Assembly: GCA_001606155.1 (NCBI GenBank)
Contig: LODT01000015.1
Coordinates: 1 to 64,000, forward strand
DNA: 64,000 nt
Reading direction: 5' to 3'
Origin: Tieghemostelium lacteum
Taxonomy: Eukaryota; Evosea; Eumycetozoa; Dictyosteliales; Raperosteliaceae
A program made the translations under genes and the position numbers. Positions within the stretch are counted from its first letter, which is position 1. Every line of letters begins with the position of its first letter. The notes under the pieces were generated by a model, which was given only the letters and a program-made list of their open reading frames with translations, had not been told where the DNA came from and did not search any database. This document shows positions 12,747-47,794 of the stretch, in pieces.

Positions 12747-15035
12747 TTACCATTGACCATCAAATGAACTGAAACTAGATAGTAAAAAGACAGAATAATA
12801 GTTTTTCTTTTCAATCTTTGAGCACCAATTCCAAGCAGAAGTCAATCTACCATCGATACAAGAACCAGCATCAAAGAAATTATCAGCACCAGAACCATCA
12901 AAAGCAAATTTAAAAAAGTCACAAAGGATTGTTTTTACTAAACCTTCTCTGCTACCAAATGTCTCATTAATATAGTTAATGATACCTGGATCTTTAATCT
13001 TTGGAATATATCCCAATGTGATTACAATTGGATTGAGAATTCTAGAGATTTGAGTATATTTATCAATAAATGTCAAAGCATTGGGTACATTGTGATCACC
13101 CAAATGAATAACTGAACTACCAACCCAATCCTCACCAACCTTCTGTTGACAACGTCTCAAAATGGCATTCATAATTCTAGATACTCTTGGAGCTGATTGA
13201 ATTCTATTCAAACCTTGTCCGGTATTAGACAATTGGTAACCATTACCATCGAGCAAATCAATTTCAGCATTATACCAGAGTCTAAACATATCATGGAGAA
13301 CCAATTGCCATAAAGTCAAAGACTGATAGACATAATTGTACTGTTTCTTGTGAGAATGTGTCAAACGAGCTCCGCCAACACCAGCTTGAATACCCAATGA
13401 GTATTCTAACTCATGAGCACCTGGTTTAAAGTATTTCTTGAGATATGCCTTCATTTTCTTTACTGGATCTCTGTTCTCACGGAGATATGTGTGATTATCA
13501 CAAATGGAATAGATACAAACTTCAATATCCTCTGGTCTCAATTGAGAGGTTGCATATTTTTTTGTAAGTTTCTTAATGGCAAATTCTTTTTCCTTGATTT
13601 CTCTTTGGACTTCATATCTTTGTTTACCATCTGCTAAGATTTCTCTAGTTGCAATCTCTAATAATTCATCTTCCAATAGAGATTCACCACCTTTTTCCTT
13701 TAATAATTCATAGACTGTCTTTAATGGTTTAATCATATTCAATCCACCAAGATTTCTCTTGTTATCCTCTGAAGAGGCATCTTGAAGTAAATGAATCATT
13801 TTACCATACTCCGTTCTCATTTTGGCAGGATTCATAATCTTATGTCTTCTACCAATTTCAAATACATTTTGAAAGAATTCTTCATTTTCAAAGAACTCCT
13901 TATTTTCAAGTAATTTTTGACCTTTTTTAAAATCGCTAAAAAAACAAGAGCTATTAATAATGTGTATATAACAAAATGGATTAATTTAACATACCTAGCA
14001 ACTAATAAACCAGAAAGAATTGCACAAATTTGTCTAAGTTGTTCATTGATTCTTTTTGATTTACCACCACCAATATGAATAATATCAATCTTGTCAGTGT
14101 ATTCAGAGACATGAAGAGCAGCCTCTAATAGACGTAATTCAGATCTTTCACGTATTGATAGACGAAGTGGAATATATTTTGATCTCTCTGTAAACCAATC
14201 TTTTCCCAAAACTGTACGTTCACTTTGATTCATACCATGACCAAAATAGTTTTTAGTGTGTAAACTAAAATTATTATTATTATTATTATTATTACTATTA
14301 TTACTATTACTACCATCCATTTCATCATCATCACCTTCTAGATCTATATTTTTTTTTAAGGTGTGAGAGGCCAAAGAAGGGAGATGATGTAAATTAGTAT
14401 TCGACAAACTTATCAGTGGATTGGTGAGATTATATCGATTATACGTACTACTGAGATTATTACTATTACTATTATTACTATTGTTACTTGTACTATCAAT
14501 GCCTATATTAGTAGGTAAATTACTTTGACCTTGTTGTTGTTGTTGTTGTGGTGCATGTCTCAGAGAATTCAATTGACTAAATGTCAATTCTTGTCCATTT
14601 GAATTATTTAAACTTAAGAATGTATGAGTTTTACGATTACCTCTTCTGTGTACTGCCTATAAAATTATAATAAATCATGATATTTATAAGAAAAAAAATA
14701 GAAAAATTTTATACAATTAATTGTGAACATAAGTTATTTGTAATAAAAAAATAAAGATATATAGAATATATTTGTTAATGATCTTATAATTTTCTTTTAG
14801 AATCTAATGATTGAATACTTACAATTGAACAAACTTCACAAAATTCATCTTTACAAATTAAACAACGAACCATAGCTGGTTGATCTGTGCATTCAACACA
14901 CATTCCCTCTGGTGTGATATCGATAACTGGTTCAAATTTAACATGTGGTGTTAAATCTTCATTTTCTTCATCAATTTCAATATCATCGTCACCGTCTAAC
15001 AATTTAGATAGTTTTGCTTGATTTTGGTTATGCAT
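12747..15035 (-). CDS. UPF0652/DUF2009 protein with amino-terminal B-box
   Basis: Three exons, 15035-14823, 14656-13995 and 13935-12747, join in phase for about 687 residues. Residues about 44-80 form a B-box-type zinc finger: CVECTDQPAMVRC, CKDEFCEVC, then across the intron AVHRRGNRKTH. A Gln/Asn/Ser-rich linker follows (residues about 90-190). The rest, from LGKDWFTERSKYIPLR to the carboxyl end (IHLGDHNVPNAL, ILNPI, FDAGSCIDGRLTSAWNWC), is the conserved DUF2009 region of UPF0652 proteins found in fungi, plants and amoebae. Biochemical function is not established as far as I know. A second open segment upstream could extend the protein, but it has no ATG (see the upstream region). Confidence 0.87.
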
Positions 15036-26316: not shown

Positions 26317-29300
26317 ATGACTAATTTAATTAAACCAATAATGTCTGATAGAATAATAGGTGAGTGTAATATGAATGTTCAATTTTTTAAAAATTTGGGA
26401 ATTTTATATTATGTTTTTTTAATTTTTGTAAAATGAACATTAAAAAGAAACTATTCTTAGGTTTTAACATATTTTTATTTAAAAATGAATAGAAAATAAA
26501 AATGAAGGGAAAGAAGAGCATCCGGAGGGTAGCAACGGTGCAGATAGTTTTAATAAAAAAGAAGAATATGAAAATATAAAGAATGTGCCTAGCAGTATAA
26601 GTGGTACTACAGAGGAATCTGATGATGAACATACGTCAACTACATCGTCATCATCAGGAGGTAACCAAATATTTGGTCACCTACCAATACAAAATAATTT
26701 AATACCAGATGCAATTGGTATTAAAGACTATGAGGATGAGGAAGACACCTGGTCCATTGGAGAGGATGAAGAGGATACCACCGAATCTGATAGTAATACT
26801 CAATTTGAAAATGACTTAAAAGACACTAGTAACACTGGTGAGAAAAAGAGTAAAAAGAATAAAAAGTCAAAGAAAAAGAAGAAGGGGTCAAAGAAATCTG
26901 CTATGAGTCAAGGTAAAGATGGTAAAGTACCTACAACTAATCCACCACAACAAATGGCCAATGAACTTAAATCGTCAGTTGGTATAATGGATAAACATAT
27001 TCTAACTATCTCACAAGGAGAGAACAATCTATTTTCACCAACAGAATTTGTAAAATCCAATAGTTTAAAGAACCAAGGTCCAAACAAAACTCCATTGTCT
27101 CACAGTTTATTAGGATTTTCAAATTTGGGTGCTAGTAATTTGTTGGCTTGCCAGACACCACAGTTAATTCCGCCATCTGCCACTACACCACTATTGAATT
27201 CCAATGCTCCACCAGTTACCAATCCATTGCCAGACGTGGCATTTTGTCATAAAATTCTAGATGACCAAGGTAATTTTATAGTACCATCATCTGAATCACC
27301 AATACTGGATATCGATAATCTCTTTAATGATATCGTTATCCCTGGTGCAACTAGTGATCAATCATCTTCCAATTCAAAATCTTCCTTTATAGGTTCTAAA
27401 GAAATTCCAAAATCCAATGTAAATAATTCTTCTTCTACTTCTTCCTCTAATTTAAACGCCAACATTAACAATAACAACAATATATTAAATAATCAAAATC
27501 AATCATTTTCCAATAATAATAATGAAATACCCACTGAATTAAAAATTCTACAATTAAGTGGATCTAGAATTTATTTTAATAGAGAATTATCAGAATTGAT
27601 ATATTTCTATAGAATTCTATATGAAGCTTATAATCCAAATCTACCAATACTAGAAAAGATTAGATTTGTGGCAATAACTGCTCAGAATCTGGATATGTAC
27701 TTTTGCAAGAGAGCACTCAAATTGAGATTAGGTTACATCTCTACTAGAAAACTATTGAAACCAGAGGAAAGATATATTAATATGGTTTTGAATACCACTA
27801 GAAATCTAACTAATGAAACCTATAACCTCTTTGTAAATCACTTGTCACCAGAGCTATCGGCCAATAATGTATTTATTCTGAAACATGACGATCTAATGGA
27901 TTCTGAAAAATTCCAATTACGTGGTTTCTTTTTACAACATGTTTTCCCATTAATGACACCACTGGTGGTTGATGCAGGTCATCCATTCCCAAATCTCTCA
28001 AATTTGTCATTGAATATTGCAGTGTTGTTACAACATGATGAAGACCATAACAGATTTGTTCGTATTAAAGTTCCTCAGAGGATACCAAGATTTGTTCACA
28101 TTAAGCAGAGATCACCATACTCAATGATCACAATGGAAGAGATCATTTTGGCAAATTTGGATACACTATTTCCAAATACAAAAATCATTTCCAAGAGTCT
28201 ATTTAGGGTCACTCGTCACAATGATTTGAAACTGTCTGGTGAAGATCAAGCTAATGATCTTTTGGAACTTATAAAGACAGAACTTCATAAGAGAAAGTTT
28301 GCTCCAATGGTGAGATTAGAGGTATCACAATCCATGAGTTCTGAGATTTTAGACATGTTAAAAGCTCAGTTGCATTTAGATTCATCAGAAGTCTTTATTA
28401 TCAATGGTCCATTGGGTCTTTCTGATCTCTTTGAATTGTGTAAACTCAATTTACCACATTTGAAATTTGAACCATGGACACCACATATTCCCAGACGTCT
28501 AGTAAACATTGCCAAATTTCAAAATGAAGATATATTTTCAGTCATTAGAAAAGGTGAGTTACTTGTTAATCTACCTTACCTATCATTTAATAGCAGTGTA
28601 CAATTCTTTATTGAATCCGCTGTTAAGGATCCTAAAGTCCTTGCCATTAAGATTGCCATTTATCGTACCAATTCTAATTCTCAATTAATTAGATCTCTCT
28701 GTGAGGCAGCTACTCATAAAGAAGTCAGTGTATTGGTGGATTTAAAGGCCAGTGGAGATGAAGAGCAAAATACAAAATTTGCAAGACTTTTAGAACAGGC
28801 AGGATGCCATGTCTCCTATGGATTAGTAGGTTTAAAAACACATTCAAAAATTGCAATGGTTGTAAGAGAGGAGGAAAATGGACTAAGAGAATATCTGCAT
28901 TATTCAACTGGAAACTATAATGCATCAACAGCTGATATCTATGCTGATATGGGTATGTTTAGTTGTGATCAGGATCTTGGTGAGGATATGTGTAATTTAT
29001 TCAACTATCTCACTGGGTACAGTAGAATTACAAGTTTCAAGAAACTTCTTATTGCACCAATGAATATGAGATCTACTTTGATTCAATTGATTGATAATGA
29101 AGCAAACTTTGCCAAACAGGGTAAAGAGGCTTCCATTTATGCTGTTATGAATGGTTTGGATGATAAACGTCTAGTGAATGCACTCTATCAAGCTAGTATT
29201 GCAGGTGTGAAGATTAAGTTGGTGGTGAGAGGTCGTTGTAGAATTTTACCTGGTATACCAGGTCTCTCCGATAATATCACCGTGATTAGTATTCTCGGAC

Positions 29301-29605
29301 GTTTCCTTGAACATTCTAGAATCTATTGTTTCCATAACAATGGTCAACCAAAAGCCTATATTGCCTCTGCAGATTGGTTACACAGAAATCTAAAAAGAAG
29401 AGTTGAAGTTATGGTTCCTGTTGAAGATCCTGAAAATATCAAAGAACTTTATTCTATCATTAACGTCTATTGTAATGATACCAACGCCTGGGAGATGTTA
29501 TCTGATGGTCGTTATAAAAAGATTTCAATCCCAATTTCAGAAGACAGTCAAATGACATTTATGAAACAAACCATTCAAAAACATCCAGTTATATGGAGTA
29601 AATAA
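26317..29605 (+). CDS. ppk1: Polyphosphate kinase 1
   Basis: Two exons: a 43-base first exon 26317-26359 (MTNLIKPIMSDRII) and 26493-29605, giving 1051 residues, essentially the length I recall for D. discoideum PPK1. The amino-terminal third (to about 330) is Ser/Asn/Lys/Glu-rich and eukaryote-specific. The rest is a bacterial-type PPK1: RELSELIYFYRILYEA head, LKTHSKIAMVV with the active histidine, YLHYSTGNYN, and FLEHSRIYCFHNN and SADWLHRNLKRRVEV at the end. PPK1 makes long-chain polyphosphate reversibly from ATP. In D. discoideum it affects development, predation and secreted polyP signalling. The gene is generally thought to have come to amoebae from bacteria; the intron shows it is settled in the host. 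Confidence 0.95.
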
Positions 29606-36626: not shown

Positions 36627-38051
36627 ATGATAAGATTTCCACTAATAATAATATTTCATATAATTGGTTTCCTTTTAAAAAATGAATGGTTACCAATTAG
36701 ATATAAACTCTTATTAGGGTTAATAAACTCGGATGTTTATAAAAATTTTAAAGATGATTTTGAAAGATTATCAATACAATGTGTAAATTTAGATGATACT
36801 GCAGCGGGAATTTTTAAAGATAAATATCTAAATAGAAAGATATCAAAAGTAGTTGCAAACCTACCATCAATTAAGTTATCATTTAAAAACAAACAAGATC
36901 TTTTGACTAGGTATAGAATATTATTCCCACATGTACACACATTAGTTTTTGCATGGGTAAATAAAAAAGGTGTAGTGGAAATACCAGTATTTCTACAGTG
37001 CTTTCCATCACTGAAAAAACTTCAACTTGATGCCTATTATAGGAATGGTGAAGTTATACATATGAATCAGTGGGCTGATTCAGTAAATTGGATACCACCA
37101 CAATTGGAATCCATAAATGTGATGATTTGTTACAATAATTCACAACAATTTATAATCAATTTTCTTCAACAGTTTCAGAATACACTAAAATCCATAAAAA
37201 TAAGGTACTTGAAATTTGAAGCTGAAACTGAAGTACAAAGTTTTCTAAATGACTACCATGCACCAAATTTAGAGAAACTTATAGTCTATCCTGTTTTTAA
37301 TAACATTTCATTCTATGGTAATCACATTGCCAATTTAAAGTCACTGTATGTACCAAGGTATATGCTAAATTATCTAATTGAAAATTGGTTGCATTTAGGT
37401 AAAATTGAAAAGCTTCATGTAGAGATTCCTATAGATTCCTTCCATTTATTGAATTCAATCTATGGGATACTAAACGAGAAGCCACATCTAAAACATTTAA
37501 TAATTCACCCAATATATTACACTATTCCTTCCTGCCCACAGAATTCAAAAGAATCATTAATAATTCCTAGTCAATTTATTATTCAATATTTAGTTAAATT
37601 GAATATAAGATATTTTAAAAAAGAAGATATTAGTAATTTTCTATTTTCCAGTACTTTTCCTTCTCTTAGATATCTCAGAGTACATTCAGAATTTGACAAT
37701 TTGGAGTCTATCACATTTTTTGAAAGACATAAACAATTGGTACAGATACATTTAAAAACTCCATATCATACCTTGGATACTGGTCCCAGTGAACAATTGT
37801 CAATTGCATTATCACAATTACCATCTTTGGTACACATTACATTATATTTATATTGCAATATTAAAATTAGCGATCTAATCCCCACCAAAATCTTAGTGTC
37901 ACTTCATAACTCTGAATCTCTAGATTTTATTGAAATTCAATTGGATAACACTACAATACTTCACCCATCACACCCATTTAAACTTATCAGTGGTAAAAAT
38001 AGAATACACAAATATTCAAGATTTGAAATTAATACTAATAATAATGATTAA
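36627..38051 (+). CDS. F-box-like/LRR (RNI-like) dictyostelid protein
   Basis: Intronless gene for 474 residues. The start MIRFPLIIIFHIIGFLLKNEW is the hydrophobic F-box-like block. Leucine-rich units follow (LKSLYVPRYML, FPSLRYLRVHSEF, LPSLVHITLYLY). The last 60 coding bases and the following 30 bases are repeated about 470 bases downstream. A decayed relative of its carboxyl region can be recognised at 55932-56136. Function unknown; recognition or scaffold role inferred. Confidence 0.78.
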   Translation: MIRFPLIIIFHIIGFLLKNEWLPIRYKLLLGLINSDVYKNFKDDFERLSIQCVNLDDTAAGIFKDKYLNRKISKVVANLPSIKLSFKNKQDLLTRYRILFPHVHTLVFAWVNKKGVVEIPVFLQCFPSLKKLQLDAYYRNGEVIHMNQWADSVNWIPPQLESINVMICYNNSQQFIINFLQQFQNTLKSIKIRYLKFEAETEVQSFLNDYHAPNLEKLIVYPVFNNISFYGNHIANLKSLYVPRYMLNYLIENWLHLGKIEKLHVEIPIDSFHLLNSIYGILNEKPHLKHLIIHPIYYTIPSCPQNSKESLIIPSQFIIQYLVKLNIRYFKKEDISNFLFSSTFPSLRYLRVHSEFDNLESITFFERHKQLVQIHLKTPYHTLDTGPSEQLSIALSQLPSLVHITLYLYCNIKISDLIPTKILVSLHNSESLDFIEIQLDNTTILHPSHPFKLISGKNRIHKYSRFEINTNNND

Positions 38052-38083
38052 AAAAAAGGTTAGTTATTTTAAAAAACTGTTAA
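37994..38083 (+). repeat. Direct repeat, copy 1 (end of LRR gene)
   Basis: A 90-base segment spanning the last codons and early 3' UTR of the LRR gene. It recurs at 38463-38548 with one clear substitution and a few bases of length difference. Confidence 0.95.
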
Positions 38084-38105
38084 TATAGTATAATTTAAGA
38101 AGATT

Positions 38106-38220
38106 TTAAATTTCCTCTAAACCAGCAAAGAACAGGAAAGGCATATTACCAAGATGTACATCATCATTGTCCAGGAATAATGCCTCCTTTCTTTTAAACA
38201 CCTTATACTTTCCAAAATAA
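38106..38220 (-). pseudogene. Exon-like fragment of unidentified gene
   Basis: On the minus strand a 38-codon open run ends in TAA at 38106. It reads like the carboxyl end of a real protein, with mixed composition unlike the surroundings: KEALFLDNDDVHLGNM followed by PFLFFAGLEEI. It sits between the two direct repeats and has no partner exons nearby that I can see. I infer a captured or relic terminal exon; the parent gene is not recognised. Confidence 0.4.
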
Positions 38221-38307
38221 AATTACCACATATCATATTTTTATTTTTATTTTTTTAATTAACATAGAAATAATAATATGGAAACAAAGATTTAGACCCA
38301 AATGATA

Positions 38308-38345
38308 TTGGAAAATATTATTATTTATATAATAATATTTTCCAA
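38308..38345. repeat. Perfect 16-bp inverted repeat (hairpin)
   Basis: Two 16-base arms, TTGGAAAATATTATTA and its exact complement, separated by six bases. It lies in the centre of the segment bounded by the 86-90 bp direct repeats. It could be a terminator-like hairpin or part of a small mobile element. Confidence 0.9.
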
Positions 38346-38462
38346 CATCTAGAACATTAGATAATAAGGACATAATTCAAAATATCTTCCATGATACCCT
38401 CAAAGACTTCTTTTTTCATTTGCGAAGGCCAATAATAAATGAAATTGTGAAAAGGGATATGA

Positions 38463-38548
38463 TAAAAATAGAATACACAAATATTCAAGATTTGAAATTA
38501 ATACTAATAATGATAAAAAAAAGGTTGGTTATTTTAAAAAACTGTTAA
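38463..38548 (+). repeat. Direct repeat, copy 2
   Basis: 86-base copy of 37994-38083, in the same orientation. The sequence just before it does not continue the LRR coding region, so only this short part was duplicated or retained. Confidence 0.95.
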
Positions 38549-38663
38549 ATAAATAATATTATTTGGTCAGACAAATAAAAAAAAATATTATATTTTTATT
38601 ATTATAAATATATATATTATAGAATTTGTAATATTACTAAATTGTAGAGTTTAAAATTGTGTA

Positions 38664-38685
38664 GGGAATGGGAAGGGGAAGGGGG
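38664..38685 (+). other. Potential G-quadruplex motif
   Basis: Four runs of G (3, 3, 4 and 5 bases) with loops of two or three bases, in otherwise very AT-rich DNA. It lies 28 bases beyond the stop codon of the RING/B-box-lipid kinase gene, on the strand opposite to its transcript, which would therefore carry a C-rich copy in the 3' UTR. Confidence 0.75.
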
Positions 38686-38687
38686 AG

Positions 38688-38703
38688 ATCAATTCGAATT
38701 GAT
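38688..38703. repeat. Perfect 16-bp palindrome
   Basis: ATCAATTCGAATTGAT, directly next to the G-rich tract and ten bases before the stop codon of the kinase gene. It may be a protein-binding site or chance. Confidence 0.8.
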
Positions 38704-38712
38704 TGGTAAAAT

Positions 38713-41271
38713 TTAAACAATAACTCTAATGGATCTAGGTAACATTTCACAAACAAATGGAGTTGTACCTTTTAATTCACCATCGATATCAATAATTTCC
38801 TCCTCAATATCATCTTTTAATTTTGAAAGAATAGTATTGGAACCACATTGGTCACCTTTAAAGATTTCTAAATGAGATAGAGACTTATCAGAATGAACTT
38901 CATCGTCACCAGATGCCTTGGAAATTCTCTTCTTTTCCTTTTTCATAAGTTTCTTTCTCTCCTTGTCCTTTTTGAATGGAGTAATAGAGAATCTCTTAAC
39001 TTGTTTATAAATTACATAATCCAATTCAGTATGAGTACCATCATAGATCTTTGCAAAGATGCTCATGAGATCAATTGTCTTTTGAGATTTGATAAGAATC
39101 AAATCGATAAGACCATCATTAAGTTTAGCTTTTGGTGCCATTTTCATACCTTTAGCAGCACCTTGAATGTTATTAATAATACCAAGACAGAATTCATCTT
39201 CAATTGCATGATTGACACCATCTGCATCTTCATACTCGATTCTTGCTAGAATTTTCTCACCTTTGAACATTTCTAATAATGCAGCGGTTGTGTAACGTAC
39301 TGCTTTACCCATCCAACGAAGTTTCTCAGCACGGATATTAATTCGACTTCCTAGACCCCAATGCAAGGAATTGAAACTGTAGATTACCTCTGGATGAACG
39401 TGGGTATCTTCTTCTAAAGACTCTGGGTTTAGAGTCTGACCAAATTGCATTAGAGTATCGGGTCTAACACCTTTCTTTGCTTCCTCTAGATAGAGTGTAC
39501 CTGCACTCTGACTTTGAGTCAACATTGCCTTGTCTACGTTAATTAACTGACCGTATTTCTCATTGATTTGGTTGTACTGTTCAGTTTTTTTGGCACATTC
39601 TTGTGTGATCTTTTCTTTTGTCAAAACAGTAACACGTGCGATATCAATTGGAGTTGTGATACCCATGAGAATTCTCTTGCAAATGTATTTGATATTGAGT
39701 TTACCTTGGAGTTCTAGAACGAAACTATTACCAGTACCAGCAGGTAGACATGCCAACACAAATTTATTTCTGGAATCAGCATCTCTTTTCATTATACCAT
39801 TGACGGCTTCATGAATGGTACCATCACCACCAATCATACATACAACATCTACATTGGTAACATCCAAAGTTCTGCAGATATCCTCAGCATGGTTCTTGTA
39901 TTCAGTTGGAATAATGTTAACAGCCACATGGTGCTCTTCAAAGAACTTTTTAGCTTGATTCATAATCTTCTCACCAATCTTGGAACCAGAGAATGGGTTA
40001 TAGACCAATGTTATATTCTTGATTGTAATTTTTTGAACTTGTGGGTTGGCGAAAGATCCATGTTGGATAGTGGAGATGTCAGCATTGACAAGGTCATCGA
40101 GGCTTCCGTTACTTGTAGTTGAACCTAATGTAATCTGTTCATCATCAGAGTAGTCAGAGTCATCTTTGGCGTGGAGAGAGATGGTGGATGGTTGGTGTTT
40201 AAGCTCCATTGTAGATCTCTTGTCTTTAGTTGATAGGATAGAATCAGATTCGTTGGATTTGAATAGACCTGATTTTCTCTTTTGTTGTTTGGTAGCTGCT
40301 ATAGTTGGAGTATTCGGAGCTGATAGAGCTTGAGTGGTGTTCATAGTGAGATTACCTTGTGATGGCTGAGATGTAAGGTTACTAACCATAGAAACCTTAA
40401 TCATTCTATTCATTCTCTCTTGAATAGTGGTGTTGGAATGATATTTCAAATCGACCTTACGGAATTTAACAATTTCCAATGGAGACAGTTTAGCAGAGGT
40501 TACAATCTCTTGGAGTTTAGATGCATGATAGTTTTGCAAAACTACAAAGTATTTATGTTCTCTAAACAGTTCATCGGCAGTCAATTTCAAATAGTCATTG
40601 GTGTTAATGTCATCAATGGTCATAGATAGTTTGTTTTTATGTTCGTCCAACAATTGCATATTCTTTTCAAAGAGTTCCAAGTTGGTGTCATAGTAGGATT
40701 TGAGTTGTCTTTTGACTTCAAATTCTCTGTTTTCTAGAAACTCTCTGAGACTCTTAAATAGCAATTCAGTCTCCACAATTTGACTGTCGTATGACTCTTG
40801 AATGGACTTGAAATCTGATTCCAAAAGGAACAATTGATTGGATTTTATAGCTCTGGCACCTTCTAGTTCCTCTACAGATCTCAATAGATCATTATAACAT
40901 TTCTGGAATTGATCACGATTGATATCAATGAGTTTATGTTCGGCATGTGTGGTTTTGGAACATTCTTGACATATAGGTTGGTGACATGTCTCACAGTACA
41001 ATGATAATCTAATGTGTTTATGTGTAAGACATTTATGTGTGTCTTTTAATTGTTCTTCTTTATAGGTATCTACTAGTTTCTTTATATTGAGCTGTAATTT
41101 ATATCCACCAACTTGTTCCTTACATAATGGACATTCAAATTCTTTTACTCCTTCTATTTTAGCTTTATTTATACAACTGAGACATACTGAGTCACCACAT
41201 GACAATGAATATGGTTCATCATAAACCTCATTACATGCTTGACATAATACAAAATCCTTATTTATATCCAT
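38713..41271 (-). CDS. RING/B-box/coiled-coil protein fused to sphingosine-kinase-like lipid kinase
   Basis: Intronless gene for 852 residues. The amino end is TRIM-like: a RING-type finger (C10, C13, C25, C30, C33, C47, C50, with D27 where His is usual), a B-box (CLTHKHIRLSLYCETC, CQEC, then HAEH) and a long coiled coil to about residue 270. After a disordered Ser/Thr linker comes a diacylglycerol/sphingosine kinase catalytic domain from about residue 415: LVYNPFSGSK, then the nucleotide site MIGGDGTIHEAVNG and LPAGTGNSF. The substrate-side half continues with LGSRINIRAEKLRWMG and LNDGLIDLILI. So one chain could combine ubiquitin-ligase-like or scaffold functions with phosphorylation of sphingosine or a related lipid. 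Catalytic residues look intact. Whether the RING binds E2 with Asp in place of His is open. Confidence 0.88.
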   Translation of the reverse strand: MDINKDFVLCQACNEVYDEPYSLSCGDSVCLSCINKAKIEGVKEFECPLCKEQVGGYKLQLNIKKLVDTYKEEQLKDTHKCLTHKHIRLSLYCETCHQPICQECSKTTHAEHKLIDINRDQFQKCYNDLLRSVEELEGARAIKSNQLFLLESDFKSIQESYDSQIVETELLFKSLREFLENREFEVKRQLKSYYDTNLELFEKNMQLLDEHKNKLSMTIDDINTNDYLKLTADELFREHKYFVVLQNYHASKLQEIVTSAKLSPLEIVKFRKVDLKYHSNTTIQERMNRMIKVSMVSNLTSQPSQGNLTMNTTQALSAPNTPTIAATKQQKRKSGLFKSNESDSILSTKDKRSTMELKHQPSTISLHAKDDSDYSDDEQITLGSTTSNGSLDDLVNADISTIQHGSFANPQVQKITIKNITLVYNPFSGSKIGEKIMNQAKKFFEEHHVAVNIIPTEYKNHAEDICRTLDVTNVDVVCMIGGDGTIHEAVNGIMKRDADSRNKFVLACLPAGTGNSFVLELQGKLNIKYICKRILMGITTPIDIARVTVLTKEKITQECAKKTEQYNQINEKYGQLINVDKAMLTQSQSAGTLYLEEAKKGVRPDTLMQFGQTLNPESLEEDTHVHPEVIYSFNSLHWGLGSRINIRAEKLRWMGKAVRYTTAALLEMFKGEKILARIEYEDADGVNHAIEDEFCLGIINNIQGAAKGMKMAPKAKLNDGLIDLILIKSQKTIDLMSIFAKIYDGTHTELDYVIYKQVKRFSITPFKKDKERKKLMKKEKKRISKASGDDEVHSDKSLSHLEIFKGDQCGSNTILSKLKDDIEEEIIDIDGELKGTTPFVCEMLPRSIRVIV

Positions 41272-41746
41272 CGTTGTTGTTCTTCTCCAGATTTATATTA
41301 ATTATTGACTAAAAATATATATTTTCAAAAAATTAATTTGAGGGGGTTGGTTGGGTGGACAGTGAAAACTTGTGTATATAAATCAAAAAAAAAAAAAAAA
41401 AAAGTTATAAATAACTGATATCGACAATGGGTTGTTATTTAATTATGATTGATTTGAAATGTTTGAATTTTTTTTTTTTTTATAAAAAGAAATCTATAGT
41501 GCTTTACATTCTGCTCTCGGAAATGGAATCAACTCGCCATCACTCGAATCATTTAACTTTTTGACCACCCAAAAAAAAAAAAAAAATTATTATTAAATGT
41601 TCAATACACATTTGTGATGCATTTCTTACAATTCCGGAAAGAAATCGAATTTAATCACGATCATGAAATGGAATTTGAAATCAATGGAATGGATATGAGA
41701 ATAAAAATAAATTTTATTTTTAGAAGGAAGAATGAACGCCTTTTCA
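41272..41746. other. Intergenic region, no gene seen
   Basis: 475 bases between two minus-strand genes, with several A/T tracts and a G-rich patch at 41340-41358. No coding frame recognised. Confidence 0.5.
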
Positions 41747-47029: not shown

Positions 47030-47794
47030 TTACAAGGTTTGTACAGCAACATAATCTACTCTTAAGTCATAGATTAAATTTGCACCCCAAACGTGGAAGA
47101 CACAATCGAAACCAGTAGCAGTGATATTTTGAGCGGTAATCTCCCAACGAGTTTGACCTTGGTCGTCTTTAGTATCAGTCATACCAGCACCGAGAGAAAC
47201 TCTTGGGGCAGCAGTGAATGGAGATGGGAATGTAATTTTTCTGGTGGTTGTACGTGCACCTGTTCCAGTCCAGAGGTCTCTGTTTCCAATGGCTACACTA
47301 CCATTTTGGACGAAGGATTGTGGGAGAAGTGGTTTGGCATAGAGCTCACATCTTAAGGAGATATGAGTGGACCAAGTTTCAGCATGAATAGCAATGGATC
47401 TTGCAACAATTGGTGTGTTGAAGGCATAAGTTACAACAGTGTTTTGGTCAGTATTTGCTGTGAGGATTTGTCTTCCATTGAAATCAAGCCAATTCATGTT
47501 GTCCAAAGTGTATTTAATGTAGAATGAAGTAACCCATTGTGCCAAATCACCTCTACCTTGAATGGAGAAATGAGTAAATTCTCTGACGAGAGGTGAACCA
47601 AACATAATCCATTGGTTCTTGTTATTCTCAGAAGCACACCAGGCATTGGCAACAGACTTGGAGTTATTATTGAAATTCAATACACAGTTTTTACCTCCAT
47701 GGTCAGCATTATAATCAGATGAGGTTCTAATGTTAACTTGAGCATTGGCAAGACAACCTACAGCGTTAGTTGGAATTGGAGATAATGTGGCCAT
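47030..47794 (-). CDS. Discoidin lectin
   Basis: Intronless gene for 254 residues, nearly the size of D. discoideum discoidin I (253). The amino half is an F5/8 type C discoidin domain (residues about 10-155; SIQGRGDLAQWVTSFYIKY, ARSIAIHAETWSTHISLRCE). The carboxyl half is an H-type lectin domain (about 170-254; ATGFDCVFHVWG, DLRVDYVAVQ). An RGD tripeptide is present at 81-83, as in discoidin I. Discoidins bind Gal/GalNAc, are made at the growth-to-development switch and leave the cell without a signal peptide; none is seen here. Codon use is notably biased to C-ending codons, as expected for an abundant protein. Confidence 0.95.
   Translation of the reverse strand: MATLSPIPTNAVGCLANAQVNIRTSSDYNADHGGKNCVLNFNNNSKSVANAWCASENNKNQWIMFGSPLVREFTHFSIQGRGDLAQWVTSFYIKYTLDNMNWLDFNGRQILTANTDQNTVVTYAFNTPIVARSIAIHAETWSTHISLRCELYAKPLLPQSFVQNGSVAIGNRDLWTGTGARTTTRKITFPSPFTAAPRVSLGAGMTDTKDDQGQTRWEITAQNITATGFDCVFHVWGANLIYDLRVDYVAVQTL

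Follow-up and report, generated by a model that had tools for sequence, protein, structure and literature searches.

The locus described here raises the question of whether a TRIM-like RBCC amino end (RING-like finger, B-box and coiled coil) and a lipid kinase are encoded together by one gene of the dictyostelid Tieghemostelium lacteum, and of what sort of RING and what sort of kinase would then have been joined. The window, i.e. the whole stretch of 64,000 nucleotides of contig LODT01000015.1 (assembly GCA_001606155.1) that was analysed, carries on its minus strand an open reading frame of 852 codons plus stop, which runs uninterrupted from position 41271 to position 38713. The coordinates 38713..41271 proposed by the initial annotation proved to be exact, and the stop-to-stop frame comprises 859 codons, i.e. 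seven codons beyond the ATG start.

An open frame of 852 codons has a probability of approximately 3e-29 at the local base composition, and a chance origin was rejected; 120 open codons, which is about the length of the linker between the two halves, would be expected by chance with a probability of approximately 1e-4 at the same composition. A gene read from the plus strand of 38713-41271 in the corresponding register was also rejected, the first plus-strand frame having stops throughout. The linker (residues 290-415; 40027..40404, minus strand) is a low-complexity, probably disordered but coding-like stretch, 67% of which consists of S, T, N, Q, K, D, E, P and G. Scored with codon frequencies trained on 11,495 codons from the window's 21 other frames of 250 codons or more, which were presumed to be genes, the RBCC-kinase frame ranked top of the six frames in 20 out of 20 sub-windows, the weakest signal, still positive at 0.08 bits per codon, being found within the linker at residues 321-400. 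A break of the frame in the linker, a concern raised by the initial annotation, was looked for and is absent, the linker frame being the best of six. The G+C content of the frame is 0.353 and that of the linker 0.402, compared with 0.257 for the upstream intergenic flank (41272-41746) and 0.225 for the downstream flank (38052-38712), although single 100-base bins overlap (0.27-0.44 in the frame, 0.14-0.33 in the flanks). Likewise, the longest A/T run is 8 bases in the linker, versus 28 upstream and 49 downstream. The coding signal in all 20 sub-windows, together with a linker G+C content of 40% against 26% and 23% in the flanks, makes two genes unlikely and points to a single gene across the linker. 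That the RBCC and the lipid kinase are two genes, merged through a missed intron, an internal promoter or an assembly error, is in our judgement very improbable: such a reading would fit the dip in coding signal at residues 321-400 and the existence of a kinase paralogue that lacks an RBCC (see below), but has to contend with the stop-free frame, with the base composition and short A/T runs of the linker, and with homology to that same paralogue, which starts in frame from residue ~404, upstream of the kinase domain.

Other genes recognised in the window include a polyphosphate kinase in which each of the four PP_kinase Pfam domains exceeds its cut-off (26903-29605, plus strand), a discoidin-like protein with an F5/8 type C domain and an H-type lectin domain (47030-47794, minus strand), and, approximately 25 kb from the RBCC kinase, a DUF2009 protein (12747-13835, minus strand; 536 bits), a family described in Pfam as non-canonical E2 ubiquitin-conjugating enzymes. 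The 3' end of the neighbouring frame 36627-38051 is repeated 469 bases downstream (37991-38065 and 38460-38534; 75 nt at 87%, and 35 nt at 97% overlapping the frame end), perhaps as the remnant of a local duplication.

The amino end of the protein opens with a RING-like finger (residues 10-50; 41122..41244, minus strand) having C-C-C-D-C-C-C-C ligands at positions C10, C13, C25, D27, C30, C33, C47 and C50. It is followed by a B-box zinc finger (residues 78-116; 40924..41040, minus strand), which exceeds the cut-off of PF00643 (34.5 bits versus 24.1) and obtained the top score among the at least 60 B-box places found in the genome with the B-box model, and by a probable coiled-coil region (residues 120-225; 40597..40914, minus strand). 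In the latter, the TRIM_CC model scored 19.4 bits at residues 150-224, under its cut-off of 30, and a hydrophobic periodicity of 3.5 residues was reached by 11 of 2000 shuffles for residues 120-225, by 5/2000 for residues 150-225 and by 56/2000 for residues 120-260; this periodicity is absent at residues 225-290 (802/2000 shuffles reaching the observed value) and 290-400 (1984/2000). In a phmmer comparison with PDB sequences, the N-terminus matched TRIM21 (E 2.9e-7, best stretch residues 7-116) and TRIM72 (1.3e-6), as well as other TRIM chains. The TRIM-like RBCC front end postulated by the initial annotation is supported, as a RING-like finger, a B-box and a probable coiled coil, with the RING and coiled-coil models remaining under their thresholds, and the Pfam search that it had suggested placed zf-B_box, DAGK_cat and YegS_C over their cut-offs and the RING models under theirs.

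The RING itself can be read in two ways. The Asp noted previously at the usual His position was confirmed as Asp27, the fourth ligand, which is a His in all five other genome frames read with a RING (L009, L012, L028, L029 and L040). This substitution, the scores of the listed RING Pfam models, all of which fall under their cut-offs (the best being zf-C3HC4_4 with 25.1 bits of 30), and the presence of Ala12 at a site where an Ile, Leu or Val commonly contacts the E2, would be expected of a pseudo-RING, inactive as a ligase, in an RBCC scaffold that would serve only to oligomerise and target the kinase; we regard this as a serious possibility, slightly short of an even chance. Against it, all eight ligand positions hold potential zinc-binding residues, Asp being a possible zinc ligand, and in the stretch Pro48-Leu49-Cys50-Lys51 both Pro48 and Lys51 are as in active RINGs, Pro48 being the retained E2-facing proline and Lys51 a basic residue at the usual linchpin position. 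For plant RINGs bearing an Asp, the accessible part of a published study (PMC6118397) does not decide whether Asp at ligand 4 preserves RING activity.

The carboxyl half contains the complete kinase catalytic domain with GGDGT and PAGTGNSF that the initial annotation had described. The DAGK_cat domain (PF00781; residues 420-547; 39631..40014, minus strand), in which the GGDGT motif includes Asp483, was matched with 102.5 bits (hmmscan, E 1.6e-29), and the second lobe, YegS_C (PF19279; residues 637-764; 38980..39363, minus strand), with 72.7 bits, over its cut-off. The stretch between the lobes (residues 552-626; 39394..39618, minus strand) forms a gap between the Pfam matches and is mostly unmatched in a bacterial relative, the placement inside it being ambiguous. 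A segment resembling sphingosine-kinase C4 (residues 633-655, including Asn645) was located by alignment and overlaps the start of the YegS_C lobe, and an Asp-Gly-Glu near the C-terminus (residues 830-832; 38776..38784, minus strand) is invariant in all four rows of the alignment. A classical eukaryotic diacylglycerol kinase (DGK) was rejected, as DAGK_acc is absent from the protein in a Pfam search at E values up to 1.

A profile search of the T. lacteum genome (23,333,832 bases, 43 contigs) found DAGK_cat matches at five places: the window, a paralogue on contig C2 (G000:C2:212545-214197; L056:3216-5201), a DGK with DAGK_acc (L057), a kinase matching sphingosine kinase 1 (SPHK1) at E 1e-33 and far closer to it than the window kinase is (L058), and a divergent DAGK_cat protein (L059). 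For the last of these, the longest ATG frame (L059:1228-2361, minus strand) matches only the end of DAGK_cat, and an upstream exon or start has possibly been missed. The C2 paralogue is 66% identical over the kinase region, including both lobes, and has a Ser/Thr/Asn-rich N-terminus, of which the first 215 residues contain a single Cys and no C-x2-C; neither an RBCC nor a zinc finger was found in it, and the 2.2 kb upstream contains no plus-strand ATG frame of at least 100 aa. The existence of this paralogue indicates that the kinase can stand without an RBCC. Of the at least 60 B-box places, none falls on the same contig as, and within 100 kb of, one of the other four kinase places. Outside the genome, a relative was recovered from Paenibacillus (L062; 27% identity in the best segment) as the only one among 261 candidate stretches in a scan of genome_contigs, and no viral relative was confirmed in viral_contigs (0/39 candidate stretches for the whole protein, 0/310 for the kinase alignment). 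A recent transfer of the kinase from bacteria is unsupported, in a weak test based on two short peptide patterns that miss most distant relatives. In Dictyostelium discoideum, sgkA is named as a sphingosine kinase (PMC2474670, PMC6397043) and sphingosine kinase A is mentioned in PMC5685611, the accessible parts of these papers giving no domain architecture.

The substrate class of the window kinase was considered against these relatives. Its description as sphingosine-kinase-like holds in part: the C4-like segment (residues 625-672) aligned with L058 with a score of 61, reached by 0 of 300 shuffles, and did not match above shuffles the DGK L057 (25; 175/300), L059 (21; 278/300) or the Paenibacillus kinase (22; 228/300). 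This shared segment speaks against the reading that the enzyme is not a sphingosine kinase but acts on ceramide, diacylglycerol or another lipid, a reading to which we nevertheless give a little more than an even chance. At the position of SPHK1 Asp178, the sphingosine-binding residue, the protein has Asn645 (phmmer alignment and comparison with SDVDIESEK of L058), and Asn is also found in the C2 paralogue, whereas L058 has Asp. In PDB sequences, the C-terminal half matched bacterial DgkB first (6.5e-14) and SPHK1 second (8.8e-12), an order shared by the paralogue and differing from the strong SPHK1 match of L058; the best NCBIfam model was that of the YegS/BmrU family, slightly below its cut-off (114.7 versus 118.65 bits); and the whole-domain score against the Paenibacillus kinase (169) is near that against L058 (163, a lower bound since the first exon of L058 was omitted). 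Based on Asn645, the DgkB match, the YegS/BmrU model and the near-equal scores, the protein is classed only as a putative enzyme of the sphingosine-kinase superfamily. The name sphingosine kinase would denote a resemblance and not a demonstrated substrate, which we leave unnamed because of the Asn at the sphingosine-binding Asp and because a clearer sphingosine kinase is encoded elsewhere in the genome.

The RBCC half, for its part, belongs to a large family. A search of the genome with the whole protein retrieved 48 places, consisting of the window, the C2 paralogue, the L058 kinase place and 45 places matched within residues 1-326. For comparison, a set of 48 RBCC loci (L008-L055) was chosen, partly by protein match and partly by B-box match, of which 44 were kept after leaving out the duplicates L038, L045 and L055, and L030, whose matched stretch looks B-box-like. 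The zf-B_box model matched 41 of the 44 frames at E 0.01. Kelch_6, found in 16/44, is the commonest recognised partner (among the 25 of 37 families listed), while DAGK_cat was found in a single frame of the 44 scanned, the window's own; apart from the latter (L026), seven frames end at the edge of their locus (L028, L034, L035, L039, L040, L048 and L051), where a C-terminal domain could have been missed. Other partners of B-box-type frames are Sel1 (3/44), SH3_1 (2/44) and DUSP (1/44). In L040, a B-box stretch lies inside the frame, yet zf-B_box is not among the Pfam matches listed. When a tree was built from the B-box/coiled-coil region of 43 frames, the window protein came out without a near neighbour at the tip of a long branch (1.48). 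This placement hints at an RBCC that is old, not recent, but the fork concerned has a support of 84/81, under the starred level, and the deep forks are weak. Seen from its relatives, the protein would thus be an RBCC protein having a lipid kinase where Kelch repeats are the commonest recognised partner or, viewed from the kinase side, a lipid kinase whose disordered N-terminus gave way to an RBCC.

Comparison with known systems places the protein between two families. It shares with animal TRIM21 and TRIM72 the N-terminal order of RING-like finger, B-box and probable coiled coil and detectable sequence similarity, but differs from animal TRIM proteins by its C-terminal lipid kinase, its amoebozoan origin, the Asp at RING ligand 4, and RING and coiled-coil models below threshold. 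The T. lacteum B-box/coiled-coil/Kelch proteins (such as L008, L012 and L028) resemble it in having a B-box and, after it, a coiled-coil-like stretch, and some of them also have a RING; they carry Kelch repeats where the window protein has DAGK_cat. Human SPHK1 (3vzb), which is not known to have zinc fingers, aligns with it over the catalytic motif and the C4-like segment, the window protein having GGDGT for SGDGL in addition to Asn for Asp178. With the bacterial DgkB/YegS/BmrU kinases (2qv7; Paenibacillus L062) it shares both lobes, GGDGT and the C-terminal DGE; in the Paenibacillus protein, however, the C4-like segment was undetected and most of the inter-lobe stretch is missing, and its frame of 303 codons leaves no space for an RBCC. 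A RING protein and sphingosine-kinase activity meet in one pathway in TRAF2-SPHK1/S1P, where they are two separate proteins, and where the role of S1P as a cofactor of the TRAF2 RING is a contested claim, as far as the accessible part of PMC4769158 goes. A survey of TRIM genes (PMC3503706) reports that such genes occur outside animals and that D. discoideum has one TRIM37-like gene, and mentions no lipid-kinase partner in its accessible part.

The architecture, the coding continuity, the catalytic motifs and the family assignments are observed, and on this basis we favour, with moderate confidence, the interpretation that a single gene encodes an RBCC scaffold that would oligomerise, position and perhaps regulate through ubiquitin a lipid kinase. 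According to this model, the N-terminus of a putative kinase of the sphingosine-kinase/YegS superfamily is formed by a TRIM-like RBCC module that belongs to the genome's large B-box family; we infer that the coiled coil would dimerise or oligomerise the protein, that the B-box and the RING would set its location and partners, and that the flexible linker would present the kinase domains to a membrane, where the kinase would locally phosphorylate one of the membrane's lipids (sphingoid base, ceramide or glycerolipid). More speculatively, the RING may ubiquitinate its own protein or its neighbours and in this way set the level of the kinase. Taking its cue from the contested S1P/TRAF2 claim, a built-in version of such coupling can be imagined, in which the kinase's lipid phosphate product would act directly on the RING-B-box within its own oligomer, forming a single-polypeptide lipid-gated ubiquitin ligase; this is a long shot.

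No description of an RBCC-lipid kinase fusion was found in the open-licence literature searched, and the fusion may already figure in annotated dictyostelid protein databases. What is new is the way in which two known families are combined; the system itself is not of a new kind. Provided that both halves are made as a single protein, an enzyme of lipid signalling would be coupled to a scaffold of the ligase type, and the protein would offer a natural single-chain system for asking whether a lipid phosphate regulates a RING, as is disputed for TRAF2 and SPHK1. The locus would further suggest that, outside animals, recombination has joined RBCC-like modules to a catalytic partner.
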